From positions 21,678 through 85,677 of the IMG/VR virus record IMGVR_UViG_3300021376_000028: 64,000 nucleotides of DNA; one strand, given 5' to 3'. Below the pieces are notes generated by a model, which saw only the letters and a list, made by a program, of their open reading frames with translations, did not search any database and was not told the origin of the DNA. The stretch is from a virus. Each line of letters opens with the position of its first letter. Positions within the stretch are counted from its first letter, which is position 1. The position numbers were made by a program, and so were the translations under genes. Shown piece by piece: positions 1,314 through 10,321 of the stretch.

Positions 1314-1861
1314 ACTTTTATCCTTATATTCATACTAATTGAGTATACTTACTTGGCAAGGTTAGACCCTCCTTATATATTCTCTTTTTTTAATTGGTGG
1401 TCGTTTAAGAAATGCATTTCTTAAACACACCAATTAAATTAAATTTATTCTTTCCATTATGTTTAGTATTTTCTAATCGCATAGTCATCGCGTTGTCCTT
1501 TCAATTGCATTTCCTAATTGATTTGCGGGTGCCAATGGCTCACCAGTTCCCTTGGTAAATTCCCTCCTAATAGCCTGGGTGAATAGGTCACTCAAACCCC
1601 CCCTCAATTTACTCAACAAGAATAAAATTCATGGATCTGGATATAGATAGGGTTAGGAGCATAGGAATAGTCTCTTCATATAGCCGCCTTCCCCAAATTC
1701 ATATTAAAAATCGGGTTAAAAGCCCTCTATTCAACCTATATAAGAGGTATAAGAATAAACTTAATGGAAAATAGGCAAAATTTTTTTGTTTTTAATTAAA
1801 AGTTGACTATTTTAATCAACTTTTATTAAGTTTTAGAATAAAATTAACCGCTTTTTGGCAC
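1314..1861. other. Non-coding inter-operon region with palindromes
   Basis: No convincing gene. It holds a nested palindrome at 1390-1437 (arms TTAATTGGTG / CACCAATTAA around a perfect 24-bp palindrome, 1403-1426) and an AT-rich hairpin at 1798-1824 (AAAAGTTGA / TCAACTTTT). An ORF for 47 residues at 1631-1774 (+) has no ribosome site and atypical composition. The region separates the rightward cassettes from the end of the leftward operons, so it is a convergent intergenic spacer. Confidence 0.6.
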
Positions 1862-1906
1862 AAAAAAAAGCCTTAAAAATAAGATTTCTCTTACTTCTAA
1901 GGCTTT
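1862..1906 (-). terminator. Terminator of the leftmost leftward operon
   Basis: Read leftward, AAAGCCTTA (1898-1906) pairs with TAAGGCTTT (1867-1875). An inner stem is capped by GAAA, and the leftward transcript ends in a run of eight U residues (1862-1869). Stem plus U tract is a canonical rho-independent terminator, about 140 bp downstream of the last leftward gene. 1907-2044 holds a weak hairpin (AAGCA/TGCTT) and no gene. Confidence 0.85.
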
Positions 1907-2044
1907 CTTTGCTTAATTACAATGGATTCGGGGGTACACCATAGTAATTAATAAATATTGACGCAAATTGTCGTGCGTGTCGTCTCTTTATAATACTTTT
2001 GAAGCATATATCTTTTAAATATTTGCTTCTTGTTTTAGGGCTTC

Positions 2045-2206
2045 CTAAGACTCCTGGAGATCTTCCTCTATATCTCTAAAGAACTCTTCATTAGCCCAAT
2101 CCCATTTTTCTTTTTCCCGCTCATACCAAACAACATAACAACCCCAGCACATTGGGTTTGCCATATCTGATATATCACAGCATAAATCTTGCTTATTATC
2201 TATCAT
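2045..2206 (-). CDS. Small Cys-rich protein, unknown
   Basis: A 53-residue acidic protein with cysteines at CCDIS and MCWGC, then a Trp/Glu-rich C-terminal half (YVVWYEREKEKWDW). The cysteine pairs could bind zinc. ATG 2206 overlaps the upstream stop by four bases (ATGA), the typical coupling seen across this genome. It is the last gene of the leftward transcript before the terminator at 1862-1906. Confidence 0.6.
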   Translation of the reverse strand: MIDNKQDLCCDISDMANPMCWGCYVVWYEREKEKWDWANEEFFRDIEEDLQES

Positions 2207-2409
2207 TCCTTGTCTTCCTTTAAATAAGGGAATTCGTATTCAAAATTGTCAATCACTTGGCGGATTACATCCAATTCCATTTCCAGCCATGTAACATCAT
2301 TTTGATCCATATAGGGAATGTCCTGAGAGATCTTATTATAATAGTATTTTAAAGCGGCCACCGTATATTTGACCTCTTTGCCACTATAAAAAGTAACGCT
2401 CCCGCTCAT
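2203..2409 (-). CDS. Small conserved-type phage protein, unknown
   Basis: A 68-residue protein (MSGSVTFYSGKEVKYTVAAL...) with one N-terminal beta-like segment and a helical acidic C-terminus. ATG 2409 is chosen because GAGGAA lies just upstream; an in-frame ATG at 2442 lies inside the preceding gene. No recognisable domain. Confidence 0.65.
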   Translation of the reverse strand: MSGSVTFYSGKEVKYTVAALKYYYNKISQDIPYMDQNDVTWLEMELDVIRQVIDNFEYEFPYLKEDKE

Positions 2410-2428
2410 AATTTCCTCTTTTTTTCTA

Positions 2429-2539
2429 TTATTCACAGTCATGCCCGTATTGATATTCCTCTAAGGGAATATCCTTATTACACTCAGGGCAAGTAACAAG
2501 CCAACCAATATTCTCTAGAATTTCTTCTTCCTCATCCAT
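2429..2539 (-). CDS. 36-residue zinc-ribbon-like microprotein
   Basis: Short acidic protein with CPEC and a C-terminal HDC, a possible half zinc ribbon (residues about 19-35). Its ATG shares a base with the preceding stop (TGATG), supporting translational coupling. It overlaps the upstream extension of the next gene, another reason to start that gene at 2409. Confidence 0.5.
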   Translation of the reverse strand: MDEEEEILENIGWLVTCPECNKDIPLEEYQYGHDCE

Positions 2540-2913
2540 CACGTAAGCCTGTAACTTCTATCTTTTGAATAGTTTCCATCACCGTCAAATACCATCATAG
2601 CAAGATACTTTTCCCATTCCTCTGGAAAATAGGAATCATGAAGGAATTGCAAATCCCCAAGCATTTTAAAAGAAGTAGGACCCATGTCCCACTCAGGATT
2701 ACTCTTCTGGATAGCTTCTACAATGTAATCTCTATCATAAGGCTCCCCCTCAAAAAATGCCCTGTAATTATTATCGTGTATAAGAACACCTACGGCACAC
2801 TTTTTATTTTTGCTACCGCGATAACCGCACCCCCATTCATCATTCAGGCACTTTTCATTCTGCTGCAAGAGGTGATCTTTCACAATTTTAAAGATGTCTT
2901 GATCGTTCATCAT
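2539..2913 (-). CDS. Paralogue family A protein (CxYRG/KCAxG)
   Basis: A 124-residue protein of unknown function. Shared features with 5859-6449 and 18843-19241 are a DIFKIVKDHLL-like helix, C(G/A)YRG, KKCAVGxLIxD, an AIQKSNPEW segment and a LQFLHDS segment. Cysteine and glycine spacing suggests a small alpha/beta fold, perhaps metal-binding. ATG 2913 (or the adjacent ATG) is used rather than an upstream TTG. It is the first gene of its transcript, just downstream of a double GTGTACAC palindrome that may be its operator. Confidence 0.7.
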   Translation of the reverse strand: MMNDQDIFKIVKDHLLQQNEKCLNDEWGCGYRGSKNKKCAVGVLIHDNNYRAFFEGEPYDRDYIVEAIQKSNPEWDMGPTSFKMLGDLQFLHDSYFPEEWEKYLAMMVFDGDGNYSKDRSYRLT

Positions 2914-2924
2914 GTTTTCTTTCC

Positions 2925-2942
2925 GTGTACACAAGTGTACAC
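2925..2942. promoter_or_regulatory. Tandem GTGTACAC palindromes, putative operator
   Basis: Two perfect 8-bp palindromes (2925-2932 and 2935-2942) are separated by AA and so lie on the same helix face, 10 bp apart. They lie between a TACAAT-like -10 (about 2954-2959, leftward) and the start of the gene at 2913, a good position for a repressor. The cognate regulator is unknown. Confidence 0.5.
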
Positions 2943-2990
2943 ATTTGATATATTGTACTTAGGATAATTGGTATTAAATATTAGGTTTAT

Positions 2991-3014
2991 TTTACAAGCC
3001 ACCAAGCTTGTAAA
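2991..3014 (-). terminator. Hairpin between transcripts, probable weak terminator
   Basis: Perfect 9-bp stem TTTACAAGC (2991-2999) / GCTTGTAAA (3006-3014) with a 6-nt loop, 24 bp downstream of the gene ending at 3038. The downstream tract is AT-rich (ATAAACC) but not a clean U run, so termination may be partial. Confidence 0.55.
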
Positions 3015-3037
3015 TCTTAATTTCTTTTTTAAATAAC

Positions 3038-3298
3038 TTATAAAATTGGATAACCAGTGTTGTCATGGCAAGTATCAATATCGTTAAAGTTAATCTTTTT
3101 AACCAAGATTGCACCATCATCGTCCTTTATGTCAGAAATAAAAAGTTGTAAGGTATCAATAAAATCATCAAGATCACCCTCACGGAATGTACCGTTTGTT
3201 ATGGCAAAATCATGCAATTTTTGGTCATTTGCAAAACAAGCCAAACCGACAATGATAGTCCCAATATTTTGTTTACTTAAAAAAATGTTGTCAATCAT
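3038..3298 (-). CDS. Hypothetical acidic protein
   Basis: An 86-residue protein (MIDNIFLSKQNIG...) with a hydrophobic segment IGTIIVGLACFA near the start, then acidic residues including DDDGAIL. No family recognised. The ATG overlaps the preceding stop (AATGATTGA junction). Confidence 0.6.
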   Translation of the reverse strand: MIDNIFLSKQNIGTIIVGLACFANDQKLHDFAITNGTFREGDLDDFIDTLQLFISDIKDDDGAILVKKINFNDIDTCHDNTGYPIL

Positions 3299-3512
3299 TA
3301 ATTACTCCAAGTCTTGATGCTTTTTCGTATAAAAAATTGTATTTATTTCTAAAGTGTGTGATCTTTGCGCTAAAAAGATTGCGCTCTTCTTCGCTCAAAA
3401 GATTTATTGATTCCTCCAGGGTACTGTCTAGTTGTTTAAGACTAGCTTGAAAAAGCTTAAGTTGTTGTCTTGCCTCTGTTTTTAAATTTTCTTGAGCATC
3501 ACCCTTCTCCAT
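3291..3512 (-). CDS. Hypothetical helical protein
   Basis: A 73-residue, mostly helical protein beginning MEKGDAQENL, with heptad-like LKLFQASLKQLDSTL. The open frame extends further upstream, but those residues are the antisense-like reading of the overlapping gene at 3499-3768, so ATG 3512 is preferred. No known domain. Confidence 0.55.
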   Translation of the reverse strand: MEKGDAQENLKTEARQQLKLFQASLKQLDSTLEESINLLSEEERNLFSAKITHFRNKYNFLYEKASRLGVIND

Positions 3513-3768
3513 CAGCAAGCATTCCTTCCTCAAGAGGAGTAATACTGATAGCGTTTCCCGTTTTGGTAATTCCAAACAAAGAGCCTGGACCATTACCCTC
3601 AGGATCACAAGAAGCATAAACTTTGCTACCATCACTAAATTCTAATACTGCTGTATTATTCCAACGAATATCATCCCAGCCTTCGTTTAGTGCTTCTTCT
3701 TCTGAAAGCCATCTCACATTCGTACACTTAAGGCCAACTGGATGCGCTACCTTTTTACTTTTCATCAT
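3499..3768 (-). CDS. Hypothetical protein
   Basis: An 89-residue protein with a beta-rich pattern (AVLEFSDGSKVYASCDPEGNGPGSLFG), resembling a small beta-barrel or beta-sandwich. Two adjacent ATGs are possible starts. It overlaps the next gene by 14 bp. Function unknown. Confidence 0.6.
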   Translation of the reverse strand: MMKSKKVAHPVGLKCTNVRWLSEEEALNEGWDDIRWNNTAVLEFSDGSKVYASCDPEGNGPGSLFGITKTGNAISITPLEEGMLADGEG

Positions 3769-3775
3769 ATTTTAC

Positions 3776-3946
3776 TCAATTCTTAAATGTTTCTTCAAAT
3801 TTATTTATTAAAACTTCTATTGTATTTCTTGCATTATCATTCTTAGACAACCAATAATCTAACAATTGGTCGTCAAGTATAAGATTATGCAACCCAGACA
3901 ATAAAATCTTGACTTCTTCTTTGTTTAAATCAACAACACTTCTCAC
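3776..3946 (-). CDS. Small hypothetical protein, GTG start
   Basis: A 56-residue helical protein (MRSVVDLNKEEVKILLSGL...) initiated at GTG 3946, which overlaps the upstream TGA in a GTGA junction. It fills a gap otherwise lacking a gene, with good coding character and an in-frame stop 8 bp before the next gene start. Function unknown. Confidence 0.55.
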   Translation of the reverse strand: MRSVVDLNKEEVKILLSGLHNLILDDQLLDYWLSKNDNARNTIEVLINKFEETFKN

Positions 3947-4155
3947 AGAGATTCCTTTGGAATACAGCGCCTAGTGCAGTATCCCAAATTATTTTCTTCG
4001 TAAAAGATACCGCGAATAAAACTTTTGTTACACATTGCACAAACAAAAGGATTCGCCCCCTTAGACCCATAAAATAAAGCTGCCTTACCAAGCAACTTTG
4101 GTCCTTTATCCCTATTTTGTCCAGCAATGGGTTTTGCTGGCTTCTTACTAGCCAT
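3943..4155 (-). CDS. Small zinc-finger-like protein
   Basis: A 70-residue basic protein. The Lys-rich N-terminus (MASKKPAKPIAG) is followed by CAMC (residues about 40-43) and, 18 residues on, a CTRRC pair, a treble-clef or zinc-ribbon arrangement. It may bind nucleic acid. It overlaps the upstream gene by 8 bp. Confidence 0.65.
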   Translation of the reverse strand: MASKKPAKPIAGQNRDKGPKLLGKAALFYGSKGANPFVCAMCNKSFIRGIFYEENNLGYCTRRCIPKESL

Positions 4156-4636
4156 TTATTTCCTCTTTCTTTTTAATTGATAGCAATGACTCTTCAAATT
4201 CATTAGAAAACTGCTTATGAAATTTTCCAAGATTTGCTGGGGTCAAGTGCTTTAGGTCTTCTATATTTTTCCAACTACGGATCATTGAATTTATCCAGTC
4301 TGTCTTTTTACGCTCGGAAGCGTTTGTTGTAAGACCAAGATGTTGCATAACAACTTCAGGTGTCAAATACACATAAACCAAATCTGAATCTTTCACTTTG
4401 TAATAAAGATAAGTGTTTTCAAACTTTTCTAAAATCTTCCAACGAGCATAAAAATCTGCTGCAGTAGAAAACTTAATATTACCAATACAAACAGCCATAC
4501 TGCCGAATACTAAAGATTTAGTTATAGCATTTAAATCTGAGTATTCTTCGGGTGTATCTTGATTGTAGATTGTGAACAATTCGTTGGGGTTATCGTTAAA
4601 ATATTTAACCCTTTCGGCATTCCAAACTAGCGGCAT
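4148..4636 (-). CDS. Hypothetical protein, 162 residues
   Basis: Mixed alpha/beta protein (MPLVWNAERVKYF...) with an LGLTTNASERKKTDWINSM segment resembling an initiator-like helix pair and a Lys/Glu-rich C-terminus. No family recognised. Well-defined start with an AGGAAA-type ribosome site. Confidence 0.7.
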   Translation of the reverse strand: MPLVWNAERVKYFNDNPNELFTIYNQDTPEEYSDLNAITKSLVFGSMAVCIGNIKFSTAADFYARWKILEKFENTYLYYKVKDSDLVYVYLTPEVVMQHLGLTTNASERKKTDWINSMIRSWKNIEDLKHLTPANLGKFHKQFSNEFEESLLSIKKKEEING

Positions 4637-4658
4637 TGATTTTCCTTTCTATTTTTAA

Positions 4659-4862
4659 TTATTCCTTGGGTTCTTCATAAAGGATATTATCAGAACGATA
4701 CATTCTTTCAGCTGCGTCCATAACAGGCTTGTAATAATACCAAATTTCTTCGTCTCCATTTGCAACACTCGGAGGAATAAGACCTTCCTCGTACAAATCA
4801 TCATATGCCATTTGTAGATAAAGCATTTGTGTTGCCTCGTCAGCATCGTCAAAGCGATTCAT
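4659..4862 (-). CDS. Hypothetical acidic helical protein
   Basis: A 67-residue acidic protein (MNRFDDADEATQMLYLQ...). The first two thirds look helical with aromatic residues (IWYYYKPVMDAA). No recognisable family. Preceded by AGGAAAC at suitable spacing. Confidence 0.65.
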   Translation of the reverse strand: MNRFDDADEATQMLYLQMAYDDLYEEGLIPPSVANGDEEIWYYYKPVMDAAERMYRSDNILYEEPKE

Positions 4863-4871
4863 ATTGTTTCC

Positions 4872-5228
4872 TTACAGTTTTAATTTTTCTTTATATTGTA
4901 AAATAAGTTGTATCAAAGTATTTGGAACAGAAGTATCATAACCCTCTTCATCAACATCACCAATAAAAACCACATCACCGGCAATATAATCCCCAAGAAG
5001 AATTTTTTCCCCTGAGTCATACCACAAAGCTGTTGCAATTTTATTTTCTGGCAAATCGATTAATTTACCCTCATCATTTATATATGCAACAAATCGGAGA
5101 TTTCCAAAACGCACAACATCAAAGAATCCACCTACTGCTTCATTCATTTCCTGTGAAGTCCAAGTGCTTGTTATTTCTTCAATATCACCGCTTGCTGATA
5201 CAGTGATTGCTTTTTTATTTATTAACAT
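4872..5228 (-). CDS. Hypothetical beta-rich protein (DUF3846-like pattern possible)
   Basis: A 118-residue protein. The order FVAYINDEGKLIDLPENKIATALW, then LLGDYIAGDVVFIGDVDEEG, is reminiscent of DUF3846-type phage proteins (new value, domicile, "l-GdvvivG" strand). The likeness is weak and from memory. Cytoplasmic, function unknown. Confidence 0.6.
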   Translation of the reverse strand: MLINKKAITVSASGDIEEITSTWTSQEMNEAVGGFFDVVRFGNLRFVAYINDEGKLIDLPENKIATALWYDSGEKILLGDYIAGDVVFIGDVDEEGYDTSVPNTLIQLILQYKEKLKL

Positions 5229-5234
5229 AGTTAA

Positions 5235-5648
5235 TTAGTACAACCCGTACTCTTCTCTTTCTTCTTCTGTGACTATAGTAACAGTGCTATTGCTTCCCAT
5301 TGGAGCATCATGATGACTAAGAGAATAAGTGATTCTATCTTCTTCAATAAATCCCCGCATTATCCACTCGCTTTTGACACTCATTCCCCTGATCAAATCA
5401 ATAGGTTTGCGTGCATGAACAAAACCACTATGATTTCCATCCCATAAACGCAAATTAGAGATTTTCCAAAAACCTGTCTCGTTTTTGTCAAAAAGTTGAG
5501 AAGTAATATCAGTAAAAGCAAATATTGCTTCTTCCCAGCAACCAAAACAATCTTCTGAAGGAACAGATTCGTCTGTTTCTTCATCAAATGTAGTACATGT
5601 ACATACATTTGTAATCTCAAATGGAACTATTACGCTAAACATTGACAT
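5235..5648 (-). CDS. Hypothetical protein with CxxC
   Basis: A 137-residue protein. ATG 5648 (MSMFSVIVP) is chosen because an upstream ATG at 5699 lies inside the preceding gene. The N-terminus (FSVIVPFEIT) resembles that of the next protein upstream (FSIIVTATYFV), hinting at a shared small strand-helix fold. Cysteines CTC and CFGCW could bind metal. Confidence 0.6.
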   Translation of the reverse strand: MSMFSVIVPFEITNVCTCTTFDEETDESVPSEDCFGCWEEAIFAFTDITSQLFDKNETGFWKISNLRLWDGNHSGFVHARKPIDLIRGMSVKSEWIMRGFIEEDRITYSLSHHDAPMGSNSTVTIVTEEEREEYGLY

Positions 5649-5667
5649 ATCTAATAATCTTTCTTTT

Positions 5668-5853
5668 CTAATCGTCTTGAATTGTTCTATGATGCCCATT
5701 AATGGGAATTAAAGATGCAACTTCACCAGTACCAAGAATGTCTGAAAATTTCTTATTGCCGAGAGCTGCTTCGTAAACTTGATCTATAGCATCAGTTACA
5801 TCTTTTCCAATAACAAAATAAGTTGCTGTAACTATTATGCTAAACTTTGGCAT
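5668..5853 (-). CDS. Hypothetical small protein
   Basis: A 61-residue protein (MPKFSIIVTATYFVIGKDVTDAI). A strand followed by a helix starting DVTDAIDQVYEAAL suggests a small ferredoxin-like fold. Function unknown. Its 3' end overlaps only the discarded extension of the next gene. Confidence 0.6.
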   Translation of the reverse strand: MPKFSIIVTATYFVIGKDVTDAIDQVYEAALGNKKFSDILGTGEVASLIPINGHHRTIQDD

Positions 5854-5858
5854 ATATG

Positions 5859-6449
5859 TTACTCTTTCCTTTCTAAAGTTTCATCTATTAATTCATTCAA
5901 AGTTTCATCATGGGCTACGACGAATGAACCATTATCATCAAATCTATCTTGCAGTGCAGCAAATTTCATTGGCCAATCTTCAACCTGATAGGTATCGTGA
6001 ACAAGTTGCATTAACCTAAGAAACATTAAAGAGTTTCTACTAATTTTCCAATTAGGATTTGATTTCTGAATTACCTCAATAATTTCAACACTACCAACAC
6101 TTTCTCCTTCTATTTCCTGGGTATAGTGAGTAGAATCAATAAGATGACCAATTGCACATTTCAAATTATAAGGAACGCTAAGGCACAAATCTCTGTAAAT
6201 ATCAGAGATTACTGCGTATTTTTCTTCCTCATCTGAATAAAAATGATCTTTTTCACATTGTTTCTCAGCTTCGTTATAACAATTTTCAAACACAGAATTG
6301 TTTCCACCTCTGTATCTGCATTCGCCATTTTCATCTGTTGACCTTGCGGCTTGCTCAGTCAAAGATTTAACTATGTGTTGATACGCATCTTTATCTGTTT
6401 CGATATGGTAATCTTTCATGTTTTCCTTATAAGAATCTGTGCTTGACAT
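5859..6449 (-). CDS. Paralogue family A protein, long form
   Basis: A 196-residue member of the family also seen at 2539-2913 and 18843-19241: CRYRGGNN, LKCAIGHLIDS, VIQKSNPNW and MQLVHDTYQVEDW are conserved in order. It has an insertion after the CRYRG motif with two extra cysteines (NCYNEAEKQCEKD). Function unknown. It starts in a TAATG junction with the family B gene at 6449-7069, an arrangement partly repeated at 18.2-19.2 kb. Confidence 0.7.
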   Translation of the reverse strand: MSSTDSYKENMKDYHIETDKDAYQHIVKSLTEQAARSTDENGECRYRGGNNSVFENCYNEAEKQCEKDHFYSDEEEKYAVISDIYRDLCLSVPYNLKCAIGHLIDSTHYTQEIEGESVGSVEIIEVIQKSNPNWKISRNSLMFLRLMQLVHDTYQVEDWPMKFAALQDRFDDNGSFVVAHDETLNELIDETLERKE

Positions 6450-7069
6450 TATTCCTCGTCCGAAGCCTCATGTATTCTATTTAAAACAATTTCTCCGTTA
6501 ACAATTCTTCTCAATACATCTGCTACAACTTTGGGATGAATTGACCAAGTTGCGTTCAAAGTTGAATTAAAATTCAAACCATACTCAAGTTTAACCCGAT
6601 CCCAAACGGAACGATCTGTACAATAGAATAAATCCTGTGCTTCTGCTTCAGCCAAACCAAGATAATCTTTAGCCCAATTTCTCATCCAGCCAGAGTTAAT
6701 AATTGAATTAAGTTCTCCTAAATCATCAGCCAATGGTGCTTCTGCATAATAGTAACCATTCCATTTTGTGCGAGGCTCAACAATTTTATCTGTTGATTGT
6801 GAAAAATATGCATCAAGCACAGCCCAACCTGCAAGGCAAGCAGTTGTGCCACAATTCAATTTTTCTAAATTAGCGTCACAAATTTCGTCTAAAGTATCAG
6901 CCAATGATGCTTCTGCATAAATTTGATCAGCATTGATTGGAAATTCTTCTTGAAGTTCATATGTTTCGTCTTCTTCAAGAACTCTTCCAAACCAAGCACC
7001 CATGTGAAAATTTTCTGGGCTTGCGTTTTCAATTCTATTTGCTAATTGCAGCATTCTTTCTTTATTCAT
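6449..7069 (-). CDS. Paralogue family B protein (FHMGxWFG / CxTTACxAGWA)
   Basis: A 206-residue protein. Signatures shared with 18189-18764 are MNKExMLxxAxxI, ENFHMGAWFG, LNCGTTACLAGWAVL, a FYCTDRSVWD segment and VVADVLRRIVNGEI. The CGTTAC/GWA motif recurs in phage proteins of unknown function. It may be a metal- or thiol-dependent fold. ATG 7069 (or 7072) is preferred over 7090 because of GAGG upstream and overlap with the preceding gene. Confidence 0.7.
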   Translation of the reverse strand: MNKERMLQLANRIENASPENFHMGAWFGRVLEEDETYELQEEFPINADQIYAEASLADTLDEICDANLEKLNCGTTACLAGWAVLDAYFSQSTDKIVEPRTKWNGYYYAEAPLADDLGELNSIINSGWMRNWAKDYLGLAEAEAQDLFYCTDRSVWDRVKLEYGLNFNSTLNATWSIHPKVVADVLRRIVNGEIVLNRIHEASDEE

Positions 7070-7235
7070 CATTATCCTCAATTTCTTCAATATCTGTGCT
7101 TCTACCGGACCATTGAACTATTTTCATTATCAATGCCCAGTCTTCATTATCTATTTCTTCTTGTCTAAGAATTTGTGCTATCCAATCCATTGCTCCTTTG
7201 TCGTCTAAATTATCTGTACGATGAAACATTGCCAT
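7062..7235 (-). CDS. Small acidic hypothetical protein
   Basis: A 57-residue helical, acidic protein (MAMFHRTDNLDDKGAMDWI...IEEIEDNDE). The stop overlaps the start of the family B gene. Good coding periodicity and tight packing support it. Function unknown. Confidence 0.55.
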   Translation of the reverse strand: MAMFHRTDNLDDKGAMDWIAQILRQEEIDNEDWALIMKIVQWSGRSTDIEEIEDNDE

Positions 7236-7243
7236 ATGATTTC

Positions 7244-7651
7244 CTATATCTGTCTTGTATCAAAAGTATTTGATAAGGAAAAATTTAAGGTGAATGTATA
7301 TAAACTGTCATCAATTGGTTTTTGACATTGAGTTATATTCAACCACCAACCTTTGTCTTGAACAGTAATTTGCGTACTATCAGGAAGATCTGCAATCACC
7401 TTTTTTAATTCTCCAACAGTGATTGTTGGACTATATCTAGTTATTCCACATATCCATTTTTCATAAAGATTGTTTTTCCATGTTAAAAACTCTTCAAACC
7501 ATTCATCATAGCTTATACCAAAAGGATATTTTTCAGATGTATCTAAGTTAGAATCAAAATCTAATTCTTCATAAGTTTTTAAAAGTTGCGATAAAGGATT
7601 TGTTAAATCCTCAACACATTGATAAAACTTTTTTTGTTTCTCTGTTGTCAT
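7244..7651 (-). CDS. Hypothetical protein, 135 residues
   Basis: Soluble protein with an N-terminal helical half and a C-terminal segment TVGELKKVIADLPDSTQITVQDKGW. The latter resembles a motif common in small phage proteins (TVGELKxxLxxLPDDxxVxV), where it is a domain of unknown function. The AGAAAGAG-type ribosome site supports ATG 7651. Confidence 0.65.
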   Translation of the reverse strand: MTTEKQKKFYQCVEDLTNPLSQLLKTYEELDFDSNLDTSEKYPFGISYDEWFEEFLTWKNNLYEKWICGITRYSPTITVGELKKVIADLPDSTQITVQDKGWWLNITQCQKPIDDSLYTFTLNFSLSNTFDTRQI

Positions 7652-7669
7652 TTTTTCTCTTTCTGAAAT

Positions 7670-7957
7670 TTATTCAGTTGTGATTATTCCTGTCAGTTCG
7701 CTTAGCTTTTCAGTCCAATACCTACGAAATCCGTCAGGTACCGATTTGCTATAAAAACTTTGAGATGTAATATTGAAAAATGCGGTTAGCAATTTATTAT
7801 AATTTATTTCATTCCATTCATATTGCTGAATCATTTCTACTGTTTGTTTAACCTGCTTCTCTCCATTTAGAAAAACACGATAGTCGTCGCTTTGATGATA
7901 TTGCCAGTCTGTTTTGTTAATTATTATTGCTAACTCTATAATTTCTTCATTATTCAT
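7670..7957 (-). CDS. Hypothetical protein, 95 residues
   Basis: Small helical protein (MNNEEIIELAIIINKTDW...). ATG 7957 has an excellent AAGGAGAGCAA ribosome site. The in-frame upstream extension runs into the tRNA-like element and is rejected. It is the first gene after the tRNA-like and structured RNA stretch. Confidence 0.7.
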   Translation of the reverse strand: MNNEEIIELAIIINKTDWQYHQSDDYRVFLNGEKQVKQTVEMIQQYEWNEINYNKLLTAFFNITSQSFYSKSVPDGFRRYWTEKLSELTGIITTE

Positions 7958-9698: not shown

Positions 9699-9760
9699 TA
9701 TGATTAACCTCACGCCCGTTGATTTATTTTTATTCTTAGCGCATTTTGAATACGCAATAG

Positions 9761-9832
9761 TAGGCCTATAGGGAATCGAACCCTACTCCACAGATTAAAA
9801 GTCTGTTGCTTCACCATCAAAGCTTTAGGCCT
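9761..9832 (-). tRNA. tRNA-Lys (anticodon TTT)
   Basis: Perfect acceptor AGGCCTA/TAGGCCT, D stem GCT/AGC with GG in the loop, anticodon stem ACAGA/TCTGT and loop CTTTTAA (anticodon TTT, codons AAA/AAG), T arm TAGGG-TTCGATT-CCCTA, discriminator A. CCA is not encoded. It matches the heavy use of AAA lysine codons in this genome. Confidence 0.93.
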
Positions 9833-10123
9833 TTAGACACGCATTCCCCTACAAAAAGATCTAACTGGACAATATATACTACTTGTAAGAACCGTCGTAT
9901 ATATTGTCGGATTAATATAATTTCTTATATTACGGGTTCACAGTCATCTACCGTATAAGCCAAAATCTTATACACAAGTCAAAGCTACAGGCTATTAGCT
10001 AGTTGTGTATTGCAGTTAGTTTTTACAAATAGTGTTTCTATGGACTGAAAGCAGTCCGTTCTGGGATCTCCCCAGACACTCATGCTATTTGTGAGATAAC
10101 TAACAACTTAGACTTTCCCCTAA
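9833..10123 (-). ncRNA. Unidentified highly structured non-coding region
   Basis: About 290 nt without an ORF, between a small gene and tRNA-Lys. Directly visible stems are GACAATATATAC/GTATATATTGTC (9868-9879 with 9897-9908), AATATAA-TTTC-TTATATT (9914-9931; GAAA loop on the transcribed strand), TACGG/CCGTA (9931-9955), ATACACAA/TTGTGTAT (9970-10010), and a multi-branch domain closed by ACAAATAG/CTATTTGT (10026-10092). That domain encloses GGACTG/CAGTCC and TCTGGG/CCCAGA. Density of perfect stems and lack of coding suggest a phage structured RNA. The tRNA-adjacent context is like GOLLD or ROOL RNAs, though it is shorter than either. Confidence 0.6.
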
Positions 10124-10321
10124 CTACTCTTCTCGCCAGATTGGATTTTGCAAGATAATAGGTTTATTTTGAACAGGTACAGGTTCAGAATTATTGGAAA
10201 ATAAACAAGGTTCAGACTCCATCATTAGTTTAATTAAAAGAGCTGGTTGAATATTTGTACCTTTAAGTTCTTCAGCCAGTTCTTTCTCATAAGCCTCTAT
10301 ATCGTGAGTGTCTCTATTCAT
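10124..10321 (-). CDS. Small hypothetical protein
   Basis: A 65-residue protein (MNRDTHDIEAYEKELAEEL...) with an acidic helical start and a Pro/Asn-rich end. No family recognised. It is the last ORF before the structured RNA region. Confidence 0.6.
   Translation of the reverse strand: MNRDTHDIEAYEKELAEELKGTNIQPALLIKLMMESEPCLFSNNSEPVPVQNKPIILQNPIWREE

Follow-up and report, generated by a model that had tools for sequence, protein, structure and literature searches.

The window analysed here comprises 64,000 nt, corresponding to positions 21,678-85,677 of the 85.7-kb virus record IMGVR_UViG_3300021376_000028 in IMG/VR. Around 9-12 kb of the window, all genes and three tRNAs are carried by the minus strand. 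A gene for a 65-residue protein of unknown function (10124-10321, minus strand) is directly followed by a folded RNA region (9833-10123, minus strand), which in turn directly precedes tRNA-Lys (UUU) (9760-9832, minus strand). A preliminary description had presented this region as about 290 nt of folded non-coding RNA without an ORF, including a three-way domain and a GNRA-capped hairpin. The stems are present where it had placed them, and the fold is better than that of shuffled sequences. We found no plausible gene within 9833-10123, where the sole overlap is a spurious 50-residue ORF on the plus strand. Since the ORFs are only spurious, a coding sequence was dismissed, as was a degraded tRNA, because no tRNA score was obtained anywhere in the region. 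The described setting of a structured RNA near tRNA-Lys also stands, with the correction that the RNA functions as the minus strand, on which the genes also lie.

Architecture of the 290-nt module

The window junction is the 5' domain of a module of approximately 290 nt ending at tRNA-Lys. The 68-nt core of the three-way junction (10025-10092; this and all following features are on the minus strand) is defined by covariation and by a covariance model built without the window copy. Helix P1 (10092-10085/10032-10025) begins 32 nt behind the stop codon of the 65-residue gene. P2 (10079-10071/10065-10058) contains a bulged G (10077) and is capped by the loop GAGAU (10070-10066), and P3 (10057-10052/10047-10042) completes the junction together with the conserved strands CAUGA (10084-10080) and GAAACA (10038-10033). 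An outer 7-bp helix (GUUAGUU, 10104-10098/AACUAAC, 10021-10015) surrounds the junction. The remainder contains a second hairpin (9970-10010; AUACACAA/UUGUGUAU and an inner stem), a GAAA-tetraloop hairpin (9913-9932) and a long hairpin (9868-9908; GACAAUAUAUAC/GUAUAUAUUGUC). Judging from the sequence, the module may be closed by a helix spanning 9853-10113, formed by GUCUAA (10113-10108) and UUAGAU (9864-9859) and followed by a U-run (9857-9853).

Compared with dinucleotide shuffles, the folding energy of the whole region has z-scores of -2.7 for the minus and -4.6 for the plus strand; those of the three-way domain are -4.1 and -6.9, respectively, with none of 200 shuffles equally good. As the plus strand folds slightly better, energies cannot pick the strand, whereas covariation can.

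Similar short direct repeats (UAGGGGAA..GUCUAA) flank the module at both ends (10107-10123 and 9833-9855, minus strand), the 3' repeat being different in the phage contig L024. The words GGGGAAAGUC (10111-10120) and GGCUUAU (9952-9965), both on the minus strand, could pair mutually and resemble the conserved regions I and V of RNase P RNA. This likeness is probably due to chance, as there is no Rfam RNase P match.

A removable module shared by two phage lineages

The near-identical contigs L002 and L003 retain the RNA region. The more distant relatives L004-L006 retain the 65-residue gene, and in L005 this gene is directly followed by a tRNA-Met with the RNA absent, indicating that the RNA is a removable module. 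The whole module occurs at 93% identity in two phage contigs with a different gene context, L024 (202 kb) and L033 (62 kb). Approximately 95 consecutive bases are identical between the window and these two copies, yet P3 is rewritten. The approximately 190 nt beyond the junction are shared, as the 290-nt module, with only this one other, unrelated phage lineage. We found no homology to the whole region in cultured phages or plasmids; weak matches to Pseudomonas phage HU1 and to Streptomyces helicases were attributed to chance.

Between the two lineages, the pair closing the GAAA loop changes from A-U in the window to G-C in L024, a compensatory change, and the long hairpin shows one C-G to U-G change. 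The long hairpin and the outer helix have each lost one pair in L024 (the final pair of the latter), while the second hairpin is invariant and the possible closing helix is identical. These changes lend modest support to the putative structure of the 190 nt outside the junction. For the individual hairpins of this remainder, which rest on two lineages, a chance origin is less improbable than for the three-way domain.

The transfer of the whole module between two unrelated phages, with about 95 consecutive identical bases and a diverged P3, would also fit a free-standing ornate phage RNA, acting in trans or as an oligomer like GOLLD or ROOL, in which the junction is one domain. The tRNA setting, the possible closing helix and the U-run agree with this reading, but a shared promoter or flank is absent and the junction occurs elsewhere without the module hairpins. 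The Rfam models of GOLLD and ROOL give no match even at E ≤ 10, bearing out the preliminary statement that the RNA matches neither. We regard a free-standing RNA of this kind as improbable.

The junction defines a widespread RNA family

The first lead was a 16-base pattern derived from the P2 hairpin, which matched relatives of the module as well as unrelated contigs that have this junction with different stems. Wider patterns, in which P2, the loop or the J3/1 strand was left free in turn, each gave many more matches. Matches with a pairable P2 almost always showed parts that the pattern had not specified, namely GAGAN, GAAC, P3, GAAACA and then a strand complementary to the 5' flank. From 16 phage copies, leaving out the window copy, we built a covariance model of 72 positions (R1). 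The model scores the window junction with 63.3 bits (E = 4.9e-13) and has no further match in the 64-kb window. The window copy contains the three helices together with AUGGUR, GAGAN, AC and GAAACA, as do the members of the family.

In total, 117 matches form 70 sequence clusters originating from unrelated phages. The junction is also present in a few bacterial genomes and in Nitrososphaerales archaea. Whole virus records carry one or two copies. Tandem pairs are found in L044, L048, L065 and L090, and also in L091, where the pair is cut by the contig end. The consensus reads P1 - (C/U)AUG - GU R [6 bp] GAGAN [6 bp] AC - P3 (variable) - NN(U)GAAACA - P1', in which P2 directly adjoins P3; in the window copy, one additional A follows CAUG (J1/2). 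Among the 68 parsed clusters, GAGAN is found in all and GAAACA in 64, while AUGGUR is present in nearly all, with two AUGAGUG and two GUGGUG as exceptions; the search patterns favour these consensus letters. The stems are diverse, with 66 different sequences of P1 and 29 of the inner P2 among the 68 clusters.

Covariation identifies the functional strand

In the seed alignment, 97.7% of the cells are paired, and two-sided changes occur in 15 of 16 pairs (105 such cells versus 31 ± 5 in shuffled alignments). When the partner strand is slid by 1-3 columns, pairing falls to 38-50%. P1 and P3 of the seeds were outside all search patterns used to find them, whereas P2 pairing had been filtered for. 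A larger set of 50 distinct rows, fitted to the covariance model, is 95.2% paired with 323 two-sided changes against 100 ± 8 shuffled, and 35-47% paired in the slid versions. Covariation is heavy in all three stems. The compensatory changes that the preliminary description had proposed to look for in related phages are thus massive for the three-way domain, while the 190-nt remainder is backed by the two phage lineages only. The UC/GA beside P2, invariant in phages, changes to GG/UC, CC/GG, CG/CG, AG/CU and UA/UA in archaeal copies and in a second Geminisphaera copy, so it belongs to P2; these letters had also been considered as hairpin-ribozyme-like, a likeness rejected because they are covarying base pairs. 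An AT-rich spacer with fortuitous stems, for which only the low G+C content speaks, is refuted for the three-way domain by covariation, the model match and the energy z-scores; overall, its probability is vanishingly small.

With the registers of P1 and P3 set by Watson-Crick pairs alone, we counted 57 G-U pairs versus 11 A-C mismatches over the 68 clusters. On the opposite strand, G-U pairs would turn into A-C mismatches; the functional molecule in the window is therefore a minus-strand RNA. The junction acts at the RNA level, from the same strand as the window's genes. The few copies per phage and the occurrence of both orientations to genes in some phages might have suggested a DNA-level signal, such as an origin, recombination or packaging site folding as single-stranded DNA. 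Such a signal is very unlikely in view of the G-U over A-C bias and the same-strand stop-codon bias described below, both of which point to RNA from one strand. Integron attC and other DNA folding sites were ruled out by the G-U bias.

From the fixed 6-bp distance between the bulge and GAGAN, the zero-length junction between P2 and P3 and the approximately 20 letters, unpaired or in the junction, that hardly vary, we infer a compact tertiary fold with an activity of its own. A nearly invariant core combined with fully covarying stems is rare among RNA families, and such families first met in phages have several times turned out to be new ribozymes.

Copies in bacteria and archaea

An exact pattern search over 85k genomes yielded about a dozen true copies. 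The model matched 1 of 248 genomes in the order of Xylanimicrobium, 5 of 250 in the order of the Nitrososphaerales genome, and 1 of 251 and 2 of 289 elsewhere, each sample including the genome on which it was centred. The class is rare in the sampled cellular groups. One Nitrososphaerales genome carries 14 copies, where the motif follows genes for PQQ beta-propeller proteins at 72-130 nt; three tandem PQQ paralogues each have their own copy 72-80 nt behind. MAG binning calls for caution where copies are single, and less so for this 14-copy series. Tandem PQQ beta-propeller genes of about 750 residues in a Nitrososphaerales archaeon (G310 contig 7, 15928-23649; L269) have the motif in each 3' region. 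The repeated genes of about 470-750 residues before the archaeal copies had raised a transposon-borne guide RNA (TnpB/IscB), which we rejected because they encode PQQ beta-propellers and not nucleases. Isolates with natural copies, Geminisphaera colitermitum TAV2 and Xylanimicrobium pachnodae, make the function directly testable.

Genomic placement of the copies

A same-strand ORF ends at most 45 nt before P1 in 26 of 67 clusters, compared with 5 of 67 in a mirror control (opposite-strand stop behind the motif), the ORF calls being mechanical; in about 60% of the clusters, the motif does not closely follow a stop codon. Downstream of the motif, T-runs or terminator-like hairpins are frequent. 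Some copies are located between convergent genes, others are antisense to both neighbours or ahead of start codons.

A detected tRNA lies on the same strand within 200 nt, on either side, in five of about 67 clusters, namely the window, L054 (5 nt), L060, L150 (12 nt) and L174 (5 nt). The L174 copy, from the isolate X. pachnodae, resides between tRNA-Ala and tRNA-Lys in an array of 26 tRNA genes within 6.3 kb (1437-7742). Copies in L061 and L045 are found beside odd tRNA-like sequences.

These tRNA-like sequences (L061, 1580-1496, minus strand; L045, 7168-7278) and a further one in L005 (9150-9230) combine good acceptor and T arms with an anticodon region that is abnormal or missing, and ARAGORN made no calls. 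Those of L061 and L045 show a Leu-type D arm (GGUAGACGC), and L045 has an apparent pseudoknot. All three are possibly tRNA mimics of large phages. Between the tRNAs of L060 (4580-5430), we also observed about five copies of a repeated RNA-like unit (GACUGAAUNNNNNUUGGUUAUC ... CACAUGUUUG), partly around tRNA-half-like pieces, and a similar unit in L061 near 1260-1190. Short tandem repeats (acgacgaaacugcagagguag) immediately follow the motif copy in L077 (1650-1720).

In at least four clusters, the motif is in frame within genes that either are homologues of terminase large subunits or closely resemble such genes. It occupies a linker, apparently inserted relative to a Streptomyces phage terminase. 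A comparison of L020 with L046 shows paired substitutions in P2 that come at the expense of amino acids, indicating that the RNA is under selection inside the coding sequence.

A possible self-cleaving RNA as the best explanation

The position of the junction indicates that it is co-transcribed with the upstream gene, as part of the transcript of that gene. Cutting by the window junction would then separate the mRNA from the tRNA-Lys portion of this transcript; other copies would cut at gene ends, within 3' UTRs and within tRNA arrays. Sporadic spread with few copies per phage is the pattern of known small ribozymes. Self-cleavage is favoured by the sporadic distribution across domains of life, the positions at tRNAs and 3' ends and the tandem copies. 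Overall, our best explanation, whose chance we put somewhat below even, is that the junction of an undescribed family forms the co-transcribed 5' domain of the module and most likely cuts its own chain. That the junction is a self-cleaving RNA is by itself quite possible, though somewhat doubtful. Slightly more doubtful is the wider proposal of a new class of small self-cleaving ribozymes, present in tailed phages as well as in the genomes of bacteria and archaea, that would cut transcripts behind stop codons and beside tRNAs. Free cutting by the in-frame terminase copies would break an essential mRNA, and with a P1 that is often long (8-15 bp) the cut ends would remain paired. The many clusters that are not close behind a stop codon also speak against cleavage. 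No circularly permuted forms were seen in limited searches.

A long P1 and a harmless presence in ORFs such as terminase, where ribosomes unwind the junction, would be readily understood if it served in cis as a non-cutting 3'-end element. Such a compact structure would block or direct host nucleases, thereby saving the upstream mRNA or tRNA part. The sites right behind stop codons, ahead of terminators and between convergent genes agree with such an element, as do the copies behind the archaeal PQQ genes, including one for each of the three tandem paralogues. Blocking an exonuclease, however, needs stable stems only and not about 20 fixed letters with a fixed distance between bulge and loop, and copies that are antisense to both adjacent genes or precede start codons do not fit; we consider a non-cutting element unlikely, if a serious alternative.

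The P2 hairpin, in which a bulged purine lies a constant 6 bp from a GNRA-like GAGAN loop, resembles known protein-binding hairpins, so that the junction might instead bind a widely conserved host protein, or RNA polymerase or the ribosome, for example as an antitermination or translation signal. The occurrence in bacteria and archaea could be accommodated by a partner that would have to be universal. Strong conservation extends beyond P2 to three junction segments, and a role in antitermination or translation control is unlikely for elements in 3'-terminal positions; we see only a small chance for a binding site, but a slightly larger one than for the free-standing RNA considered above. Self-cleavage remains our preferred reading.

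Comparison with known RNA families

At curated cut-offs, Rfam 15 reports only tRNAs in the window; the Rfam/Infernal search proposed in the preliminary description accordingly returned no family for the region. Over the window and the phage and archaeal copies, there was no family match in Rfam 15, including twister, twister-sister, pistol, hatchet and hairpin. No description of the motif was found in open PMC papers, to which the literature search was confined, and the motif may have been described earlier under another name.

GOLLD and ROOL, to which the region had been likened, are also folded non-coding RNAs of unknown function beside phage tRNAs, and the tRNA-Lys setting fits this comparison. 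It does not extend to size or range: the RNA here is 290 nt at most, and its conserved unit is a 68-nt junction that lies mostly away from tRNAs and occurs in archaea as well. Phi29 packaging RNA is likewise a phage RNA with a three-way junction. It differs in that there is no Rfam match and most copies lie outside packaging genes, some being within terminase genes; its core differs from that of our junction, too.

Theta (HDV-like) ribozymes are similar as small conserved phage RNAs with a fixed core and variable stems, some copies of which lie about 5-15 nt from tRNAs (PMC10879173). However, HDV-like ribozymes form nested double pseudoknots with a catalytic C in J4/2 (PMC10879173), whereas here P2 and P3 lie between the two strands of P1 with full covariation, both ends of the un-knotted junction being closed by P1 outside the double-pseudoknot order. 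Copies reside on either side of the tRNA, and there is no Rfam match. With the hammerhead in all its permutations (PMC10085705), the junction shares the three-way architecture, a conserved GAAA(C) and the occurrence in phages. Its core, by contrast, is AUGGUR/AC/GAAACA, with P2 abutting P3 without GAAA between them in J2/3, and CUGANGA is absent from the core of the 68 clusters. The likeness to the hairpin ribozyme concerns words only, with GUC and GAA flanking one helix and GAAACA in a loop strand; the second internal-loop domain with the separate helices 2 and 3 is absent from the junction.

The junction fails the defining features of GOLLD/ROOL, HDV-like ribozymes, the hammerhead and every other Rfam 15 family tested. 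The RNA family spans phages, bacteria and archaea, yet is missing from Rfam 15, and the 72-position covariance model and the consensus are at hand for finding many more copies. We are nearly certain that this class of RNA is real and absent from Rfam 15.
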